From: a virus
IMG/VR virus record: IMGVR_UViG_3300028595_000008
Location: 1-35,178 of that record
Direction: 5' to 3' (one strand)
Length of the DNA stretch: 35,178 nt
Numbering within the stretch: position 1 is the stretch's first letter; each line of letters starts with the position of its first letter. This document shows positions 2,334 through 22,536 of this stretch, one piece after another. Made by a program: the position numbers and the translations under genes. The notes under the pieces are model-generated. The model had not been told where the DNA came from. It made no database searches and saw only the letters and a program-made list of their open reading frames with translations.

Positions 2334-3202
2334 TGACAGATTGCTTCACCGAAGAGTTTGAAGGCAACTTCACTATTATTCACAACGAGCTGATTCGCGA
2401 TTCAAACTTGAGTTGTCGCGCATTCAAGTTGCTGTGCATTGGATTGTCACACCGCAAAAAGTGGAAGTTTTTCAAAGAGCAGATTGCTACATGCTTCAAA
2501 GAAAGTAGCTACCAAGTTGATGAGGCAATGAAGGAACTGCGAGCACTTGGATATTTACACACGAAAGCAAAAAACAGTGAAGACGGAAAGTTTATAGGAC
2601 ACACTTGGTATTGGTTCCGAAAGCCGATCACGGATGCGGAATTCAAAAAAAGATACCGAAACACCGAAAATGCCGACTTCGGTGAAATAGGAGCGTCGGA
2701 AAATCCTGGTGACATAAGAAAACCAACTTACAAGAAAACCAACTTTAAGAAAGAACAACAACCGCCGAAGGCGGATTCGTCGGCTTCGCCGCCGGTTGTT
2801 GTTTTTTCTTGCCTAGAGAATTTGAATATTCGCCCTCAACTTAAGGCAAAGCTCAGCCGTCAGTATGACGAAGCAACTGTCGCCAAGGCCGTCGAAGTCT
2901 TGAACAACTCAGATCCCGATGACACGGAGGCGTTTCTAGTTGCAGCGATCAAGGAGGGCTGGGACAGTCCGCCTGATGAGGCGCAGCTGCTGGCAAAGAA
3001 CACCGCATATCTCACGAAACTCAGCGATTCTGGCGTCGATGGCAGGAAGCTTGGAGCCTACACTGTGACAGTACACCCCGAAGGGGTCATATTTCGACAC
3101 ACCCGACTAGACGGCAGCAAAAACAAAAGCTTCGATAGACGAGATAGGAGATTTATTGACAAAGTCCTAGCTTTCATCGAGAAATTGAAGACTGGAAATT
3201 GA
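2333..3202 (+). CDS. Replication initiator-like winged-helix protein
   Basis: A 289-aa protein. Residues 10-85 match the pattern of phage and plasmid replication proteins with a winged helix: an F-x-I-I-x-N-E-L-I motif, then LSCRAFKLLCIGLS, then a segment ending in AMKELRALGYL. A low-complexity Lys/Pro/Ser linker (about 130-160) separates it from a charged, helical C-terminal half that could contact DNA or a host replication protein. No polymerase, primase or replicative helicase is encoded here, so this protein and its 82-aa partner probably recruit host replication proteins at the upstream repeats. Assignment by pattern only. The linker region contains a strong RNA structure (see 2754-2808). 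Confidence 0.6.
   Translation: MTDCFTEEFEGNFTIIHNELIRDSNLSCRAFKLLCIGLSHRKKWKFFKEQIATCFKESSYQVDEAMKELRALGYLHTKAKNSEDGKFIGHTWYWFRKPITDAEFKKRYRNTENADFGEIGASENPGDIRKPTYKKTNFKKEQQPPKADSSASPPVVVFSCLENLNIRPQLKAKLSRQYDEATVAKAVEVLNNSDPDDTEAFLVAAIKEGWDSPPDEAQLLAKNTAYLTKLSDSGVDGRKLGAYTVTVHPEGVIFRHTRLDGSKNKSFDRRDRRFIDKVLAFIEKLKTGN
2754..2808 (+). terminator. Terminator-like branched hairpin inside the initiator-like gene
   Basis: AACAACAACCG (2754-2764) pairs perfectly with CGGTTGTTGTT (2793-2803), followed by further T residues to 2807. The enclosed GC-rich segment can form smaller hairpins such as CCGCC/GGCGG (2762-2774) and CGGC/GCCG (2781-2791). It sits in the low-complexity linker of the coding sequence, where amino-acid constraint is weak. 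It resembles an intrinsic terminator and could attenuate the transcript or be a transposed hairpin repeat. Confidence 0.45.
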
Positions 3203-3226
3203 CAATACACTGTGCTACATTATGGC
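3199..3226 (+). promoter_or_regulatory. Possible sigma-70-type promoter
   Basis: TTGACA occurs at 3199-3204, followed after 16 nt by TATGGC (3221-3226); an extended -10-like TGCTACATT lies at 3213-3221. The segment TGTGCTACAT resembles the TGTGCTACAAT upstream of the early operon at 32449-32459. The downstream gene starts at 3276. The -10 is poor for the TTGACA spacing, so this is tentative. Confidence 0.3.
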
Positions 3227-3275
3227 ACACGCTGATACTTAAGCGTTTACAACAACTCACAACAAAGGCCGATAA

Positions 3276-3587
3276 ATGGAGAAGCTATTGGTGCAACAGC
3301 TAGAAGATGGACTGTGGTATGTTGGATATTTTATGCCATACGATCAAGACGGCACACGAACGATAATTGGTGTGGAAGATACGGAACTTAAAGCGCTACG
3401 AAGCGCGATATGCAATTTAGCGCGTTGGCAGATACAGCTTACATGCCGTGTATATTCCGCGATCCACACACTGGGATGTGAGCCGGACATAGCGCCGATC
3501 GGTGTCACTGTTGGTGATGCAGCGTGTGAACGCGGGCCATGGACGCATTTAGTATACTACGGTGAAACGTGGGCACTAGGAAACTGA
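3276..3587 (+). CDS. Hypothetical protein
   Basis: A 103-aa protein of ordinary composition with several aromatic residues and three cysteines; no recognisable motif, signal sequence or membrane segment. It follows a 73-nt gap containing a possible promoter and starts at ATG 3276 with AAAGG about 7 nt upstream. Its end overlaps the next gene by 19 nt, suggesting co-translation with the nuclease-like gene. Confidence 0.6.
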   Translation: MEKLLVQQLEDGLWYVGYFMPYDQDGTRTIIGVEDTELKALRSAICNLARWQIQLTCRVYSAIHTLGCEPDIAPIGVTVGDAACERGPWTHLVYYGETWALGN

Positions 3588-3892
3588 GACATAAATTCAA
3601 CGCTAAAGCGGTCATTCGGCAGGGAAAACGGTATGACTCTAAGCTAGAAGGACGCTATGCCGCGAAGCTAGAACTCGCCCAAAAAGCGGGTGACTTGCTG
3701 TTCTTTTTGCGTCAGGTACCTTTCGATTTACCCGGCGGCGTCAAATACCGTGCCGACTTCATGGAGTTCTGGGCAGATGGAGAGGTTAAAGTCACAGACT
3801 GCAAAGGCATGGAAACCCAACTGTTCAAGCTTAAGAAAGCTCAGCTTGAGGAACTGTATCCTTTTCAGTTAAACATCGTGAAAGAGGCATAG
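3569..3892 (+). CDS. DUF1064-type phage nuclease-like protein
   Basis: A 107-aa protein with GTG start at 3569. The pattern N-A-K, YDSKLEGRYAAKLEL (residues 22-36), then RADFMEF, then VTDCKGMETQLFKLKK matches the DUF1064 family, small phage proteins with a PD-(D/E)XK-like arrangement: Glu in the SKLE helix, Asp in RADF and Lys in DCKG. Members are predicted endonucleases, often in replication regions, and may process branched DNA. Neighbours are small uncharacterised genes. Family recognition is fairly good; activity is not demonstrated. Confidence 0.7.
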   Translation: MGTRKLRHKFNAKAVIRQGKRYDSKLEGRYAAKLELAQKAGDLLFFLRQVPFDLPGGVKYRADFMEFWADGEVKVTDCKGMETQLFKLKKAQLEELYPFQLNIVKEA

Positions 3893-3905
3893 GTGTGGAA
3901 GCGCA

Positions 3906-4283
3906 ATGGCAGCGCAGCAAGACAATAGCGACAGTCGCGGGAACGCCCGAGCTGTTAACTTGGTTCGATTCCAAGCCACACCAAACGACAGAGGGTGCGG
4001 AATGGACAGCTACAAGCTCAGCAAATCTGAGGTACACCAGTTACTCACAAACTGGTACGACGAAGAGCTGCTTTCGGATTTCTATGAACAATTGGGCGGG
4101 TGCATCGAGGATATCGAAGACATCATCCAGCTTTCTCGAGAAAATGACACGCGAACGAAAATTCACGTATTGCGCTTCGCACTAAAATTCGGCACGCTTG
4201 TGCTGGATAACTATGAACCAATATTTGACACGCTATGCTTGATGACCGATCTCCTAAAACGCGAATGCGACGAGACAGAATAG
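3906..4283 (+). CDS. Hypothetical acidic helical protein
   Basis: A 125-aa protein. A later in-frame ATG at 4002, with GAGGG at 3991-3995, gives a 93-aa version beginning MDSYKLSKSEVHQLLTNWY that looks like a natural start, so the first 32 residues are uncertain. The product is acidic and helical. A different-frame ORF at 3895-4185 is Ser/Thr-rich and judged a shadow. No family recognised. Confidence 0.55.
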   Translation: MAAQQDNSDSRGNARAVNLVRFQATPNDRGCGMDSYKLSKSEVHQLLTNWYDEELLSDFYEQLGGCIEDIEDIIQLSRENDTRTKIHVLRFALKFGTLVLDNYEPIFDTLCLMTDLLKRECDETE

Positions 4284-5288: not shown

Positions 5289-5487
5289 CTATCAAATAAA
5301 CGTTGTCTATGAAGATACGCAACAAATAGAGATCTACGTCGCCCCAGATCAAATAAACGATTTTTGTTCAGCCGTGGGGAGCGGAGTCGTTTGGTTTGAT
5401 TACGCACGAGGCGAAGGTATTTGGATAAATATCCACAAAGTGAGGTACTTCAGTGTCAAAAGCCCCAAGTTGGACGCTGCAGGTTAG
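5278..5487 (+). CDS. Hypothetical small protein
   Basis: A 69-aa product with a beta-rich pattern containing IEIYVAPDQINDF and GIWINIHKVRYF. It overlaps the preceding gene by 11 nt and its 3' end overlaps the GTG start of the ParB-like gene by 35 nt. Its TGAGG segment (5441-5445) provides the ribosome site for that gene. No family recognised. Confidence 0.5.
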   Translation: MSNDYQINVVYEDTQQIEIYVAPDQINDFCSAVGSGVVWFDYARGEGIWINIHKVRYFSVKSPKLDAAG

Positions 5488-5971
5488 GAAGCTCAGCGAC
5501 TTAATACCGCATCCCAAGAATCCTAGACAGATACTTGCTGAAGATCAAAAACACCTAGCCGTCTCCATGGATAAGTTCGGTCTCATCGACAAGCCGATAA
5601 TCAACTTAGATAACATGCTAATCGGTGGACACCAGAGGGTATATACACTGCAGCTATTTAAAGTGGACGTTTGTGAGTGTTGGGTTCCCGATCGCATGTT
5701 GTCACCTGAAGAAGCTGATGAGCTCAATATTCGTCTCAACCGCAATCAAGGCGAATGGGATTACGATATACTTGGCAATGAATGGGACCTTGAATCGCTT
5801 GTCGACTATGGTTTTGACCCAAAAGAGCTTGGCGTGGAAACTAAACCAAAAAAAGCGCCAAAAGTTCAAATTGTTTTCGAGTTTGCAGATAAAGACACGA
5901 TGCTCAACGCTCTGGAAAAACTAGAATCGGTTAATAACGAGTTAGGTGCTACGATGAAAGTGCGTGGTTAG
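5453..5971 (+). CDS. ParB/Srx-like nuclease-domain protein
   Basis: A 172-aa protein starting at GTG 5453, supported by GAGG (5442-5445) 7 nt upstream. Residues about 12-70 form a ParB N-terminal-like domain: LIPHPKNPRQI, a central SMDKFGLIDKPIIN and the hallmark GGHQR (residues 59-63). The rest is acidic and contains DEADELNIRLNRNQG-like sequence typical of phage ParB-like proteins. In many phages this domain is fused to or beside a DNA methyltransferase; none is seen here. It lies just upstream of the terminase genes, so a role in DNA modification, packaging or partition-like functions is possible. Confidence 0.75.
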   Translation: MSKAPSWTLQVRKLSDLIPHPKNPRQILAEDQKHLAVSMDKFGLIDKPIINLDNMLIGGHQRVYTLQLFKVDVCECWVPDRMLSPEEADELNIRLNRNQGEWDYDILGNEWDLESLVDYGFDPKELGVETKPKKAPKVQIVFEFADKDTMLNALEKLESVNNELGATMKVRG

Positions 5972-6044: not shown

Positions 6045-6398
6045 ATGGGACGTATTCCAATTGCTCAAAAGCTAGACGATGATCAAGTTGAAAAGTTAGC
6101 ACGCAAGGGCATGACGATGGAGGAAATTGAAGATCTTTTTGGCCTTGGCGGCGGACATGTTGGACAATCGTATAGAGAAGCGTACAACCGCGGTACATCG
6201 CAAGTAAAGATGAGTTTGAGGCAGGCGCAGCTAGAGAAGGCGCTGGTGCACAAAGACACAAAAATGCTTATTCATCTCGGTAAGCACATCCTTGGGCAGA
6301 CTGATCGGCAAAAGTTGGAGCATTCTGGCAACGCTGAGATAGTCGTTCAATGGTTTGGAGATAATCAACCCAAAGTCTATGACAGCTCGGATTCCTGA
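6045..6398 (+). CDS. terS: Terminase small subunit
   Basis: A 117-aa protein with an N-terminal helix-turn-helix-like region (MTMEEIEDLFGLGGGHVGQSY, about residues 24-43) and a C-terminal segment KALVHKDTKMLIHLGKHILGQ that matches the MLI-x-LGK-x-LGQ signature of phage small terminases. It recognises genome concatemers and delivers them to the large subunit for packaging. Its end overlaps the large subunit gene by about 20 nt. GGTGA lies 4 nt before ATG 6045. Confidence 0.8.
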   Translation: MGRIPIAQKLDDDQVEKLARKGMTMEEIEDLFGLGGGHVGQSYREAYNRGTSQVKMSLRQAQLEKALVHKDTKMLIHLGKHILGQTDRQKLEHSGNAEIVVQWFGDNQPKVYDSSDS

Positions 6399-8517
6399 CT
6401 TAGTTCCGCGTGATTATCAACTACCGTTTTTCCAAAAAATGGACAACGGATGCAAGAGAGCCGTACTCGTCTGGCATCGTCGCGCGGGGAAAGAGATCAC
6501 GTGTTGGAACTACATGATCCGCCAAGCCTATTTTCACCGAAAGGGAACCTACTGTTATTTTTTTCCCACGACTCGTTTAGGACGACGAATTCTATGGGAC
6601 GGAAGCAATAAGGACGGCAAGAACTTTCTCAGCTACATACCCCCTCAGATTTTGGAAAGCGCTAACTCCGTTGAGATGAAAATCACTTTAAGTAACGGGA
6701 GTGTCATTCAAATCGTCGGAACAGATCATATCGAGAACGTCGGTATCAACCCTGTCGGATGTGTGTTTTCTGAGTATTCCCTACAAAGCCCTAATGCGTG
6801 GACGTTCACACGACCGATTTTACGTGAAAACGGAGGTTGGGCAGTCTTTAACTTCACACCGCGCGGCAAGAACCATGCTTATGACCTTTATCAAATGGCT
6901 AAGCATAATGAGGAATGGTATTGCTCGAAGCTATCAGTCGAGGATACAGGCATTCTGAGCGCTCGAGATATCGAAAAAGAGCGTGAAGAGGGGATGTCTG
7001 AGGACAAGATCCAACAGGAGTACTTCTGTAATTTTGATCGAGGTGTTGAGGGCGCTTACTATGCTCAGCTTCTCAATGCTGCTGAAAAAGATGGCCGCAT
7101 TGGCAATGTGCCCTATGATCCATCGGTTCCTGTTGATACTCATTGGGACCTGGGTGTAGATGACAGCACAGCTATCATATTCCACCAATCATGCGGCAAC
7201 GAGATTCATATCATCGACACCTATGAAGCGCACGGTGAAGGCTTGCAACATTATGCGAGAGTCCTTAAGCAAAAGGCAGAGGAAAATTGCTGGGTGTATG
7301 GAGCACATTACGGGCCGCATGATTTGCGTGTGAGAGAATTGGGTAGCGGAGCAAGAAGTCGCTTGGAAATTGCACGAGATTTAGGTATAAACTTTGAAAT
7401 TGTTCCAAACATTCAAATAAGTGATGGCATAGAACACGGACGCAACCTTTGGCCACGGCTCTGGATAGATCGAAAAAAGTGCTTACGATTTATAAAGGCT
7501 GCTGAAAATTATCACCGTCAATACAATGAGAAATTAAATGTTTACAGCGAGCGACCACTCCACGACTGGAGCTCGCATTGTTTTACTGGTGATACTCTCA
7601 TATGGACTCGTAGCGGAATGCAACGTATAATGGATCTACCTCAAACAGGTGAGGTAATGACATTAAACGGATGGAGCCATTACGAATGTCCACGAATCAC
7701 TCGACGAAATGCCAAGCTTGTGGAAGTGAAATTTCAAGACGGTACGAAGGTGAAATGTACGCCGGATCATTTATTTCTAACGAAAAGCGGGTGGAAATCC
7801 GCCGAGTCCCTGATCCGGGGTACCAAGATCCAATCTTGCTCGAGCCCGGAGTACAATACTTTCAACAAGGGCTGTACAAGCTTTGGCCAAATGAAAACTA
7901 CTATTCTAGAGGCGGCAAAAAGTTGCATCGAGCCGTTTGGATCGCGGCTTTTGGACCAATTCCAAAAGGGTGTCACATTCATCATAGAAATGGTGACACT
8001 TTCGACAACAGACTCAGCAACCTTGAGTGCATGGACGCCTCAGAGCACATGCAAAAGAACGCAGAGCACCGCAAGCATCATTCCGGTTTCACAGAAGCTG
8101 GACAGCAAAAAGCAAAAGAATGGCATCGCTCTGAAGCTGGGAGACGATGGCATTCAGAACATGCAAAACGCGCAAAAGGTTGGACAAAGTGGAAACGTGA
8201 GCCGCGACAATGTTTGGTATGCGATAAAACATTCGATTGTCTCATTCGTAAAAGCGGCAACCAGCAGAAGTTCTGTCACCCAAACTGCAAAGCCACTCAT
8301 TATAGACGGCGTAAAAGAGCTGAAGCAAGCTGATGATGTATGGTGTCTGACTGTCCCCGAGACTGAGCATTTTAGCCTACAAAATGGAGCAGTCGTTCAT
8401 AACTGTATGGACGCATATAGGTATCTTGCGATAACAATGAATCGTAGACGAAACGTTGGTAGAATGTCTGAGGAAGACGCAAATGCTCTCGAAAGTGCAT
8501 ACTACCGAAGAAAATAA
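6379..8517 (+). CDS. terL: Terminase large subunit precursor, interrupted by an intein
   Basis: A 712-aa precursor from ATG 6379 (a TTG at 6355 would add 8 residues). It carries the packaging ATPase: Walker A HRRAGK (33-38), Walker B GCVFSE (127-132), and a FNFTPRGKNHAYD coupling segment. The nuclease domain has acidic residues in HWDLG (Asp257), GPHD (Asp315) and, after the intein, MDAYRYL (Asp678). The conserved HDWSSH is followed by Cys401, the first residue of a 275-aa intein ending at Asn675, with Cys676 as +1 residue. After splicing the enzyme would be 437 aa, normal for the family. The enzyme cuts concatemers and drives DNA into the prohead. Packaging should depend on splicing. Confidence 0.92.
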   Translation: MTARIPDLVPRDYQLPFFQKMDNGCKRAVLVWHRRAGKEITCWNYMIRQAYFHRKGTYCYFFPTTRLGRRILWDGSNKDGKNFLSYIPPQILESANSVEMKITLSNGSVIQIVGTDHIENVGINPVGCVFSEYSLQSPNAWTFTRPILRENGGWAVFNFTPRGKNHAYDLYQMAKHNEEWYCSKLSVEDTGILSARDIEKEREEGMSEDKIQQEYFCNFDRGVEGAYYAQLLNAAEKDGRIGNVPYDPSVPVDTHWDLGVDDSTAIIFHQSCGNEIHIIDTYEAHGEGLQHYARVLKQKAEENCWVYGAHYGPHDLRVRELGSGARSRLEIARDLGINFEIVPNIQISDGIEHGRNLWPRLWIDRKKCLRFIKAAENYHRQYNEKLNVYSERPLHDWSSHCFTGDTLIWTRSGMQRIMDLPQTGEVMTLNGWSHYECPRITRRNAKLVEVKFQDGTKVKCTPDHLFLTKSGWKSAESLIRGTKIQSCSSPEYNTFNKGCTSFGQMKTTILEAAKSCIEPFGSRLLDQFQKGVTFIIEMVTLSTTDSATLSAWTPQSTCKRTQSTASIIPVSQKLDSKKQKNGIALKLGDDGIQNMQNAQKVGQSGNVSRDNVWYAIKHSIVSFVKAATSRSSVTQTAKPLIIDGVKELKQADDVWCLTVPETEHFSLQNGAVVHNCMDAYRYLAITMNRRRNVGRMSEEDANALESAYYRRK
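7579..8403 (+). other. Intein (275 aa) in the large terminase, class 1, Cys1 and Asn-Cys
   Basis: The intein frame is continuous with terL. Block A is CFTGDTLIWT at its start; block B contains CTPDHLFLT with the T-x-x-H signature; block F is WCLTVPETEHFSL; block G is AVVHN followed by extein Cys. All residues for standard splicing are present: Cys1, block B Thr and His, penultimate His, terminal Asn, and Cys +1. Between blocks B and F the intein frame (about residues 75-250) has no recognisable endonuclease motif and an unusual Ser/Thr/Gln-rich, low-order composition. In that interval a complete HNH gene is encoded in another frame. Joined extein sequence reads HDWSSH-CMDAYRYL, a canonical terminase nuclease motif. 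Confidence 0.92.
7686..8333 (+). CDS. HNH homing endonuclease encoded out of frame inside the terL intein
   Basis: A 215-aa protein encoded wholly within the intein DNA, shifted one base back (-1 frame) relative to terL. ATG 7686 has GGAG (7673-7676) 9 nt upstream; an in-frame ATG at 7671 would add 5 residues. Residues 80-125 are a clear HNH_3-type core: KKLHRAVW, FGPIPKGCHIHHRNGD (HIHH at 97-100), DNRLSNLECM and a final SEHMQKNAEHRK. A CxxC (9, 12) lies near the N terminus, and CLVC (176-179) with C197 and C201 forms a C-terminal zinc ribbon. The domain set is that of intron- and intein-associated homing endonucleases. It would cut intein-free terL alleles and promote conversion. Confidence 0.85.
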   Translation: MSTNHSTKCQACGSEISRRYEGEMYAGSFISNEKRVEIRRVPDPGYQDPILLEPGVQYFQQGLYKLWPNENYYSRGGKKLHRAVWIAAFGPIPKGCHIHHRNGDTFDNRLSNLECMDASEHMQKNAEHRKHHSGFTEAGQQKAKEWHRSEAGRRWHSEHAKRAKGWTKWKREPRQCLVCDKTFDCLIRKSGNQQKFCHPNCKATHYRRRKRAEAS

Positions 8518-20012: not shown

Positions 20013-21182
20013 ATGGCCTTAACAGTCTTACCAGATCCTAGTGGATTAGGTCAGGGCATTAGCGATATCGGTGGAGCCCTAGCGAGTGTACTGCAAAGTC
20101 AGCAACAAAAACAAAAGCGCCTTGATCTTGCAGAATTGTTGAAAAACACAGATTTGACACAGCAAAAGGCGGGCCAAGGATTTCTGGAACGAGCTCTTTC
20201 TCAAAATATACCGCCTGAAATGGCAGTTGGTGTGTTGCAGCAAGCGTTAGCTATGCCACAAGGCGGTGTCGCCATTCCGGAGCAATCCGGCCAAATGAGC
20301 GATTTATTGCAAAAACTTGGATTAGATGCTGACTATGCGGATGCATACTCTGATCTGTATTTTAGAGTTCCACAGGGAGCGCAAACAGCGTTAACCAAAA
20401 ACATAGGTGAAGAGATTGAACGTGCACGCGGCAGGCGTGGCGGACAAGAGGATATTCAGGATGACGCTGTTTTTCCCGTAATTAATCCATTCGAAGGCAT
20501 GACGTCAAAAGAAGCGGCACAGTTTCGTTTGCAATATCGCAAAGAAAATGAGCCAATTCGAAAAGAAGCCAATCAAAAGCTAAAGGCTTTGTCGTTAGAG
20601 CAACGTAGTATTGACCAGCTTAAGCGTATCAACGAGAAAGGAACGTTACCTGAAGGGTTAGGAAGGCTCAACGTCAATTTTTCGACTGGTGAGTTGCGTA
20701 TTCCATTTGCCGCCAACCCTGACACACAGCTTTTTGTAAAAACAATTCAGGATTTTACCACAAAAGCAAAAGATACCTTTGGTGCTCGAGTCACCAACTT
20801 CGAACTTGGTCAGTTTCTGAAAAGACTACCAACATTAGCCAACACAGCAGATGGCCGACGCGCTATTATTGAACAAATGCAAGCCCTAAATGATTTGAAT
20901 CGAGTACAAAACAAAGCTTTACGTGACGTCTATGCACATTATGGGTCTGGCAACATCACACCAGAACAAGCGGAAACTATCGCTGAGCAAATGATTCAAG
21001 AAGAAACAGCGCAGATTGTGACACGTCTAGAACAAGCTTCGCTAGCGCCGCAACTCAACGCGGCTATTCAAAATGTACGGCCCGGTTTTGTCATTGTGAT
21101 TAAAGATGGGCAAATCAAACAGGTGCCACAGGAAAACTTAGAACGCGCTCAACAGTTAGGGTGGACTGCATATGAACAATAA
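20013..21182 (+). CDS. Putative internal virion (ejection) protein
   Basis: A 389-aa, mostly helical, Gln-rich protein with GGAGG 6 nt upstream of ATG 20013. The N terminus ALASVLQSQQQKQKRLDLAE, the long central coiled segment around residues 170-330 and lack of signal sequences fit a protein stored in the capsid and injected with the DNA. It overlaps the following gene by 11 nt. Role inferred from position and composition. Confidence 0.6.
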   Translation: MALTVLPDPSGLGQGISDIGGALASVLQSQQQKQKRLDLAELLKNTDLTQQKAGQGFLERALSQNIPPEMAVGVLQQALAMPQGGVAIPEQSGQMSDLLQKLGLDADYADAYSDLYFRVPQGAQTALTKNIGEEIERARGRRGGQEDIQDDAVFPVINPFEGMTSKEAAQFRLQYRKENEPIRKEANQKLKALSLEQRSIDQLKRINEKGTLPEGLGRLNVNFSTGELRIPFAANPDTQLFVKTIQDFTTKAKDTFGARVTNFELGQFLKRLPTLANTADGRRAIIEQMQALNDLNRVQNKALRDVYAHYGSGNITPEQAETIAEQMIQEETAQIVTRLEQASLAPQLNAAIQNVRPGFVIVIKDGQIKQVPQENLERAQQLGWTAYEQ

Positions 21183-22536
21183 CGATGCGCTAGGTTTTAC
21201 TGAAGCTGATCTAGGTATGTTAGAAATCGAACAACCTGGAGTTGATGGCCCAAGTGATGATACTTTGCTACGGAAAGCTGGAATGGTTGCAAGTCGTGGG
21301 GCTGAAGCATTGGCAGGCTTGCCTGGAGATATTCAGCAGCTATTAGAGTCTGCTAGTAGCGGACTGATACAATATGCAACGGGAGTTGATGTTAGTCCAG
21401 CTTTTGAGCAAGCACAACTCGTCGGTGGACGGTTTCCGACAAGTGCCGACATACGTGAAACAGTCGGTGAAGCGACTAACTATGCGTTAGAACCACGTTC
21501 AGAAATGCAAGAGCTAGCCGGCAACATTGCTGGAGACTTTGCGACACTGGCTATTCCGGTGAAAGGAAAAATACCTTTTGCGAGAGCGCTAGCAACAAGC
21601 ATTGTCGGCAACGTTGGTTCTCAAGCTGCAAAAGATCTTGGTTTTGAAGAGGGCGGACAAGCGGCAACCAAAATTGGCCTTATGATTATGGCGGGAATGC
21701 TAGGCAAAGGACGTGGCGTTAAGGCATATACTAACAATCTCTATAAACAGGCTGAAAGTGCTGTGGAACAGGGTGCGACTGTTTCTAGTCGTGGCATTGA
21801 GCGCAATATTCTAAAATTAGAAGATATGCTTAGTAAAGGAATTGACACGCCAAGTAAAACCGCCGTTCGTAAAGTCATGACTGACATGAGCCAAAAAATA
21901 AAAGACGGCGAAGTACTCGTTGAAGATCTCATGGCCTTCAATCGTGATATCAATGAAATTGCTGGCGATCCCGCATTATTAGAGCGTGGCAGAAAGTTCT
22001 TCAATACCTTGCGTGGTGATGTCAAAAAAGGACTAGAAGAATACGGCAAAACGAATGCCGATTTCATGAAGTATTACAGCGATGCCAATCAAGCATTTGC
22101 CGGTCTCAAATACGGTGACAAAATTAAAAGTTTCGTGCGTGGAGCTGTACGCTCTGATAAGTTCCCTTATGCTATGGTAGCTCTAGGTTATGAGAGCGCC
22201 ATTTACCCTACAGCAGCATTAAAAAGTGCAGCAGGTCTGGCTGGTGCAGGTGCTGCTGTTTATGGAGCGGAAGTTGTACGCAGAGTAGCAACCAACCCCG
22301 CCTTGCGTAAGCACTATTTAGGCGTTGTTAATGCGAGCCTAAAGGGAAATCGTCAAGCGCTACTAAGAAACATGAATTTGCTCGATAGAGCTTTAAAAAA
22401 ATCGATCGATGAGGAACCGTTAGAGGTGCTTGAGGTTGAGGAATCAGAACAGCGTGTGCAACCAGTAGCACAAGAAAATTCGCAACCTGAAGATCGAAGT
22501 ATTTTAGGGCGTTTGTTTCGCCCAATCATTGCATAG
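21172..22536 (+). CDS. Putative internal virion (ejection) protein with membrane segments
   Basis: A 454-aa protein. The first half contains Gly/Ala-rich hydrophobic stretches (GRFPTSADIRET to AGDFATLAIPVK and IGLMIMAGMLGKG), then helical repeats, then a hydrophobic segment LKSAAGLAGAGAAVYGAEVV near residues 343-363. Hydrophobic ejection proteins can form a channel through the host envelope. No lytic transglycosylase motif was seen. It is the last of the three-gene set. GAGGAGA upstream of 22549 lies just after its stop. Confidence 0.6.
   Translation: MNNNDALGFTEADLGMLEIEQPGVDGPSDDTLLRKAGMVASRGAEALAGLPGDIQQLLESASSGLIQYATGVDVSPAFEQAQLVGGRFPTSADIRETVGEATNYALEPRSEMQELAGNIAGDFATLAIPVKGKIPFARALATSIVGNVGSQAAKDLGFEEGGQAATKIGLMIMAGMLGKGRGVKAYTNNLYKQAESAVEQGATVSSRGIERNILKLEDMLSKGIDTPSKTAVRKVMTDMSQKIKDGEVLVEDLMAFNRDINEIAGDPALLERGRKFFNTLRGDVKKGLEEYGKTNADFMKYYSDANQAFAGLKYGDKIKSFVRGAVRSDKFPYAMVALGYESAIYPTAALKSAAGLAGAGAAVYGAEVVRRVATNPALRKHYLGVVNASLKGNRQALLRNMNLLDRALKKSIDEEPLEVLEVEESEQRVQPVAQENSQPEDRSILGRLFRPIIA

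Follow-up and report, generated by a model that had tools for sequence, protein, structure and literature searches.

Can the homing endonuclease of an intein be encoded in a reading frame other than that of the intein itself? In textbook inteins, the homing enzyme is an in-frame domain. The question is raised by the IMG/VR virus record IMGVR_UViG_3300028595_000008, of which we analysed positions 1 to 35,178; this whole stretch of 35,178 nucleotides is called the window. Its gene for the large terminase subunit, terL, contains an intein, and inside the intein, one base back on the same strand, lies an open reading frame (ORF) for an HNH protein (Table 1). We consider it very probable that this element is a mobile intein and that the second, out-of-frame ORF encodes its homing endonuclease.

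In the mechanism that we propose, a ribosome translating the terminase would read TerL-N, Hint-N, a disordered linker, Hint-C and TerL-C in a row, and the Hint domain would splice itself out to give a working TerL. A second ribosome would start inside the intein, one base back, and produce a free HNH protein. This protein would most likely cut intein-free terL at the conserved HDWSSHxxDAxRY site, and repair from the intein-bearing copy would then spread the whole element. For the window element, splicing, separate translation and cleavage are what we infer from its sequence.

An intein and a nuclease gene in two frames of the same DNA

The window intein has a complete set of splicing motifs (Cys1, block B CTPDHLFLT, the C-terminal HN and the +1 Cys), matches Pfam Intein_splicing (PF14890) with E 2.8e-10 and exceeds the cut-offs of both NCBIfam intein_Nterm and intein_Cterm. 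It sits in frame within a conserved terL motif, and intein-free homologues of this terL exist. AlphaFold predicts a confident Hint fold formed by intein residues 1-90 and about 237-275 (predicted local distance difference test, pLDDT, about 95 in both halves), with most of the linker at low confidence (about 35), and the best solved matches of the Hint model found with Foldseek are the DnaB, gp41-1 and DnaX inteins (E 2.5e-6; TMt 0.85 for gp41-1). The HNH protein, in turn, matches HNH_3 (PF13392) with E 1.3e-16 and the HNH endonuclease family phrog_15471 with E 3e-20. Its model is confident from about residue 30 and has as its best structural match, a middling one, the HNH homing endonuclease I-HmuI (Z 7.0, 77 residues, 2.7 Å); when PDB chains were searched with the sequences of the HNH family, no meaningful match came up. 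An earlier reading of the letters of this stretch (the original prediction) had described one open terL frame with a complete intein and, one base back inside it, an HNH ORF with a GGAG site and an HNH_3 core. Coordinates, frames and family assignments were all borne out, and its view that the second frame of a real intein holds a separate endonuclease gene is supported by the Hint motifs, the strong HNH_3 match and the recurrence of the layout.

Indeed, about 175 contiguous terL inteins with an out-of-frame nuclease were found in viruses, proviruses and isolated phages. The offset between the two frames was constant, and neither an in-frame nuclease nor one in the third frame occurred. The count, which is not dereplicated, is made up of 85 viral or phage loci, 29 bacterial or archaeal contigs and 61 further viral loci. 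The 85 are the 80 IMG/VR loci with the greatest similarity to the HNH protein, the window and four public records, namely gut scaffold MT838676, Tetrasphaera phage TJE1, Rhodobacteraceae phage LS06-2018-MD07 and Acinetobacter phage Highwayman. At each of the 80 IMG/VR loci, a long terL ORF encloses the HNH gene, the frame offset is that of the window and the third frame is closed; nearly all 85 inteins retain Cys1, HN or SN, and a +1 Cys, Ser or Thr. In GTDB genomes, the same layout was present at 29 of the 52 HNH loci examined, on contigs binned as bacteria and archaea (only one intein half was detected in 3 of the 29), and a broader alignment added 61 out of 79 new viral loci that share the layout, in every case at a D-A-x-R-Y site like that of terL or at a comparable one. 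The homologues keep the HNH frame open; with an indel ruled out by the number of loci and a strong HNH_3 match, all three findings that would have overturned the original prediction were looked for and did not turn up. Across the 85 HNH genes, moreover, not one stop falls in the intein frame, where 2.2 per gene would be expected after synonymous permutation; free-standing HNH homologues have 1-12 stops in the corresponding frame. A close-relative scan of IMG/VR with the 275-amino-acid intein frame, which reaches close relatives only and drew mostly on linker peptides, gave zero matches.

Also, we noticed terL genes with more than one intein. In L159, a single terL carries two inteins at different sites (1730-2744 and 3176-4130), each with an out-of-frame HNH gene, and several inteins occur in the terL genes of L018 (1509-4886), L048 (3-3383), L109 (1859-4990) and L163 (444-4817). 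In L018, L048 and L163, in-frame nucleases of the LAGLIDADG type are mixed with the out-of-frame HNH type in one terL.

The layout extends, furthermore, to another family of nucleases. In L127, the first intein (1920-2979) encloses a gene for Endonuclease VII (PF02945, E 1e-20), again out of frame and with the same offset; its IMG/VR relatives agree in eight of eight cases, and the same layout is found in Mycobacterium phages AlanGrant, Athena and phi1_186018 and in Gordonia phages Nordenberg and Affeca. Loci of this kind are L127, L188-L195, L275-L278, L281, L282 and L284, with phages Chandler, Athena and Phlyer among them. The site of these inteins is the ATPase C-motif, and many related phages have an intein-free terL that is about 98-99.5% identical, with the joined site intact in Yahalom. 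In Mycobacterium phage Phlyer, the intein annotated in RefSeq contains an Endonuclease VII gene, and the intein of Chandler is 761/762 identical to it. The latter, TerL6-f of Chandler gp6, splices in a reporter (Kelley et al. 2016, PMC5050341); given its out-of-frame nuclease, therefore, splicing has already been published for one intein of this layout, and the main text of PMC5050341 makes no mention of Endonuclease VII. Like the window element, TerL6-f lies in TerL and has its nuclease out of frame by the same offset; it differs from that element in the nuclease (Endonuclease VII instead of HNH_3) and in its site at the ATPase C-motif.

Selection in the two frames was examined by sorting the nucleotide differences of independent close pairs into four classes according to their effect in each frame. 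Over the HNH core, omega (dN/dS) was 0.24 (95% interval 0.15-0.33) in the nuclease frame and 1.05 (0.78-1.38) in the linker frame of the intein. The values were 0.46 and 0.97, respectively, in a second set of other HNH inteins, and 0.42 and 1.05 in a third set of Endonuclease VII inteins. Where the HNH gene overlaps the Hint-N splicing domain, that is, in its first 57 or so codons, both frames are constrained (HNH omega 0.57, 0.36-0.77; intein omega 0.42, 0.32-0.52), and the DNA of block B also serves there as coding sequence of the HNH protein's N-terminal part; in the intein DNA outside the HNH gene, constraint is on the intein frame alone. Judged by these substitutions, purifying selection acts on the nuclease, and the linker of the intein evolves neutrally. 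The original prediction of a featureless linker over the overlap thus holds for the HNH core and fails for the first ~57 HNH codons, which cover the splicing domain and block B. Its proposal that the linker is a passive translation held open by the host gene agrees with a linker omega of about 1 in all three sets; terL being essential, the second frame would be forced to stay open. In the order of events it envisaged, the HNH gene would have invaded a mini-intein.

The constant relative frame can be considered in terms of stop codons. In frame, the HNH gene's own stop codon would end the essential gene, and a complete HNH gene could therefore reside only out of frame. Of the two frames then available, the one used by the intein contains 107 stops in free-standing or split HNH genes and the other 282. 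The far lower number in the frame used would explain the constancy, and a single origin need not be assumed.

Mobility, translation start and competing explanations

The terL genes closest to that of the window (92-95% identical) lack the intein, and the junction, which reads CACGACTGGAGCTCGCAT followed by TGT in the window, reads CATGACTGGAGCTCGCAT followed by TTC in L095, a precise empty site. The HNH protein closest to the window's sits in a terL with only 30% extein identity. A near-identical terL without the intein suggests that the window intein is probably mobile, and the distribution is sporadic between close relatives not only here but also, for the Endonuclease VII analogue, in Pipefishvirus phages. 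Within the window's group (window 7561-7578, L014-L062), the intein occupies four neighbouring codons of HDWSSHxADAxRY (20, 6, 13 and 10 cases) and never the codon that would make the conserved His the +1 residue; the insertion codon shifts at least 14 times on the Hint tree as drawn.

The HNH protein might instead serve DNA packaging, like the terL-adjacent HNH proteins of HK97-type phages, and not be a homing enzyme at all; free-standing members of the family do adjoin terL in several phages. We consider this unlikely, because the element is absent from near-identical relatives of the window's terL, sits at the canonical endonuclease site of an intein and is distributed sporadically.

As for a homing enzyme translated on its own, the starts of the HNH genes are informative. 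In group 1, to which the window belongs, the HNH gene starts at intein nucleotide +86 (or +101/+107), and a Shine-Dalgarno (SD) match of at least 4 nucleotides accompanies the conserved start in 39 of 47 relatives, compared with 5 of 49 at an internal conserved ATG. In group 2, the start is at +218, where the intein codons GGA and TGG together create the ATG; Gly is encoded by GGA in all 14 cases (4 expected), whereas at the same position in group 1, with its starts elsewhere, GGA is used in 6 of 46 (7.2 expected). These start-codon counts are less than independent owing to relatedness. Enforcement of the HNH SD by the GAG codon of the intein motif GEVLT was considered and rejected, the enrichment being weak (26 GAG among 35 Glu codons, with 24 of 42 expected).

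Alternatively, since all contiguous members have the HNH gene in frame -1 with respect to terL, the nuclease might be made as a TerL-N/Hint-N/HNH fusion through -1 ribosomal frameshifting, its own start being unused. This appears quite improbable to us: the HNH frame usually stops shortly ahead of the conserved start, so that the stretch in which a shift could occur is short and, in some group 2 members, nil, and both the start codon and the SD are conserved, with codon choice maintaining the start in group 2.

A further possibility is that the second open frame is a chance or relic ORF, functionless today. The original prediction had put the chance of a double open frame at 1 in 10^4 to 10^5, which is overstated. 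When the HNH protein was back-translated with the codon usage of the window, the intein frame was open in 0.9% of trials (mean 3.4 stops), or about 1% for the window locus alone, and it was open in 20% when the HNH gene's own synonymous codons were permuted. The window locus alone is thus only mildly improbable, and the case is decided by comparison across loci. With some 175 loci in the same frame, conservation of the catalytic residues and purifying selection on the nuclease frame, a functionless ORF is very hard to maintain. Phage HNH homing genes are commonly located in introns, but an HNH gene in a group I intron (rejected, with zero Rfam match in the window), or frames that are products of an assembly error, can practically be dismissed, as the intein motifs are complete and the same frames recur at all these loci in many independent assemblies and isolated phages, which rules out an indel.

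Several points nonetheless weigh against a mobile intein with an out-of-frame homing endonuclease. The window intein and its HNH protein are known as sequences; independent translation of the latter is deduced from conservation of the start and SD, and homing from the distribution of the element. In some members, entry by a -1 frameshift upstream of the start is possible, and so is a packaging role of the HNH protein, as for HK97 gp74. The substitution tests, furthermore, are approximate with few independent pairs (8, 11 and 3), and the survey was seeded by nuclease similarity and not dereplicated, so that the frequency of the layout among all terL inteins is not estimable from it.

Split and free-standing relatives, and the layout of the window

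In 22 relatives including Brochothrix phage BL3, TerL-N/Hint-N, the HNH protein and Hint-C/TerL-C are encoded by separate ORFs; relatives whose linker contains stops belong to this split type, in which the two intein halves flank the nuclease gene. The Hint-C part of the split loci keeps its usual frame relation to the HNH gene in nearly all cases, and the N part varies. Split terL inteins were seen in L013 (2196-2604), L117, L123, L126, L128, L143, L144, L149, L151-L153, L158 and L160, and further ones in L236, L242, L247, L249, L254, L257, L259, L261 and L262. Other relatives have a free-standing HNH gene adjoining an intein-free terL. In the trees of the HNH core, which are poorly resolved, these states are mixed: the labels need 14-23 changes, of which strongly supported branches force 1-3, and the split loci, apart from a few that are scattered, group with free-standing genes in a single clade of moderate support. 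The trees are thus compatible with one or several origins of the embedded state, and with either direction of change between contiguous and split forms. If the linker is merely a passive translation, a single stop codon would be enough to separate the intein into halves that flank the nuclease gene, the fractured-gene layout that these relatives show; natural split inteins could arise simply in this way.

Taken broadly, inteins with an out-of-frame endonuclease may be a general and repeatedly evolved class in phage terminases, in which at least two unrelated nuclease families use the same relative frame and which links inteins, both contiguous and naturally split, with free-standing homing genes; in the window's group, the nuclease would then have acquired a new N-terminal part encoded over the splicing domain, and selection would act on both readings. 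We see the arguments for and against this wider proposal as evenly balanced.

Table 1. Features of the terL locus in the window (positions in nucleotides of the window)
Feature	Position	Strand	Size or basis
terL (large subunit of the terminase), open throughout the intein	6355..8517	+	720-amino-acid open frame; phrog_2
TTG at the beginning of the listed terL ORF (putative start codon)	6355	+	
Intein, inserted in the TerL nuclease motif after HDWSSH and before CMDAYRY	7579..8403	+	275 codons; PF14890, TIGR01445 and TIGR01443 above cut-off; empty site in L095
Doubly constrained stretch: Hint-N splicing domain / HNH N-terminal extension (CxxC)	7668..7841	+	four-class substitution test; conservation
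HNH endonuclease ORF, one base back of the intein frame	7671..8333	+	220 codons; PF13392, phrog_15471
GGAG, Shine-Dalgarno-like site for the ATG at 7686	7672..7675	+	sequence
HNH ORF counted from the ATG at 7686	7686..8333	+	215 codons
Intein block B, CTPDHLFLT	7756..7782	+	sequence; conserved in 44 relatives
HNH core / neutral disordered linker in the intein frame	7851..8327	+	
HNH_3 catalytic domain, LHR..W to HIHH..DNRLSNLE	7917..8054	+	PF13392
Zinc-ribbon cysteines of the HNH protein (CxxC...CxxxC)	8211..8291	+	invariant Cys in the alignment of relatives
Intein blocks F and G, final HN	8335..8403	+	

Elsewhere in the window, a 172-amino-acid protein (5453-5971) resembles the ParB-like N-terminal part of phage DNA methyltransferases, the methyltransferase part being absent. 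The long ORFs at 377-1315, 20013-21182 and 21172-22536 have zero PHROG match at E 1e-4.

Significance and relation to known systems

A nuclease gene overprinted on an intein would allow nuclease and terminase to be expressed at different levels. It also provides a clean natural gene overlap, in which a neutral but stop-free frame lies beside a stretch with both frames selected. In many terL genes, among them those of teaching-collection phages, the nuclease escapes annotation pipelines, and pairs of such phages with and without the element make homing directly testable.

Like canonical full-length inteins, the window element has a Hint domain in a host gene, a nuclease between blocks B and F and, as proposed here, homing; unlike them, its nuclease is encoded one base back instead of in frame and fused to the splicing domain. 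An in-frame HNH_3 intein is found in the CL131 dCTP deaminase (PMC6293099), and LAGLIDADG inteins are documented in TerL (PMC5050341). Canonical and out-of-frame types even occur together in one terL, as in L018 and L048. Fractured genes, reportedly described by Dassa and colleagues in 2009, are said to consist of a split intein whose two halves flank a nuclease gene; if we go by the title, this nuclease was of a new family. They share with the window element that host gene, intein halves and nuclease are encoded at one site. The window intein and terL, in contrast, are contiguous and would splice in cis, and the nuclease is of the HNH_3 type; the split arrangement of two ORFs with the nuclease between them is absent in the window and present in the 22 relatives described above.

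Actinobacteriophage inteins with a 'non-canonical architecture' are, to go by its title, reportedly the subject of a 2025 preprint by Gosselin et al. This preprint, which we know by that title and one citing sentence, may describe the out-of-frame layout; indeed, the paper on the ShiLan element (PMC11855218) cites Gosselin et al. 2025 for overlapping reading frames in actinophages. Actinophages account for only part of the range over which the layout occurs here. Our literature search for an out-of-frame nuclease in an intein returned, besides that title, only the ShiLan paper and a genome announcement. The original prediction had known of no described family with this layout, and our search of the literature likewise found none; the layout nonetheless recurs well beyond the window and has perhaps been published in part for actinophages. 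We therefore do not claim the first description of an out-of-frame nuclease in a splicing intein; what we describe is a real type of mobile element that has largely been overlooked.

The ShiLan element comes close to it in several respects: it has an out-of-frame HNH gene in an insertion that is open in the host frame, its distribution is sporadic, and homing has been proposed (PMC11855218). The authors of that study found no splicing domain of an intein or intron, however, and proposed that the insert stays in the protein, whereas the window element has a complete splicing domain, as recognized by PF14890, NCBIfam and Foldseek, and resides in an essential host gene.
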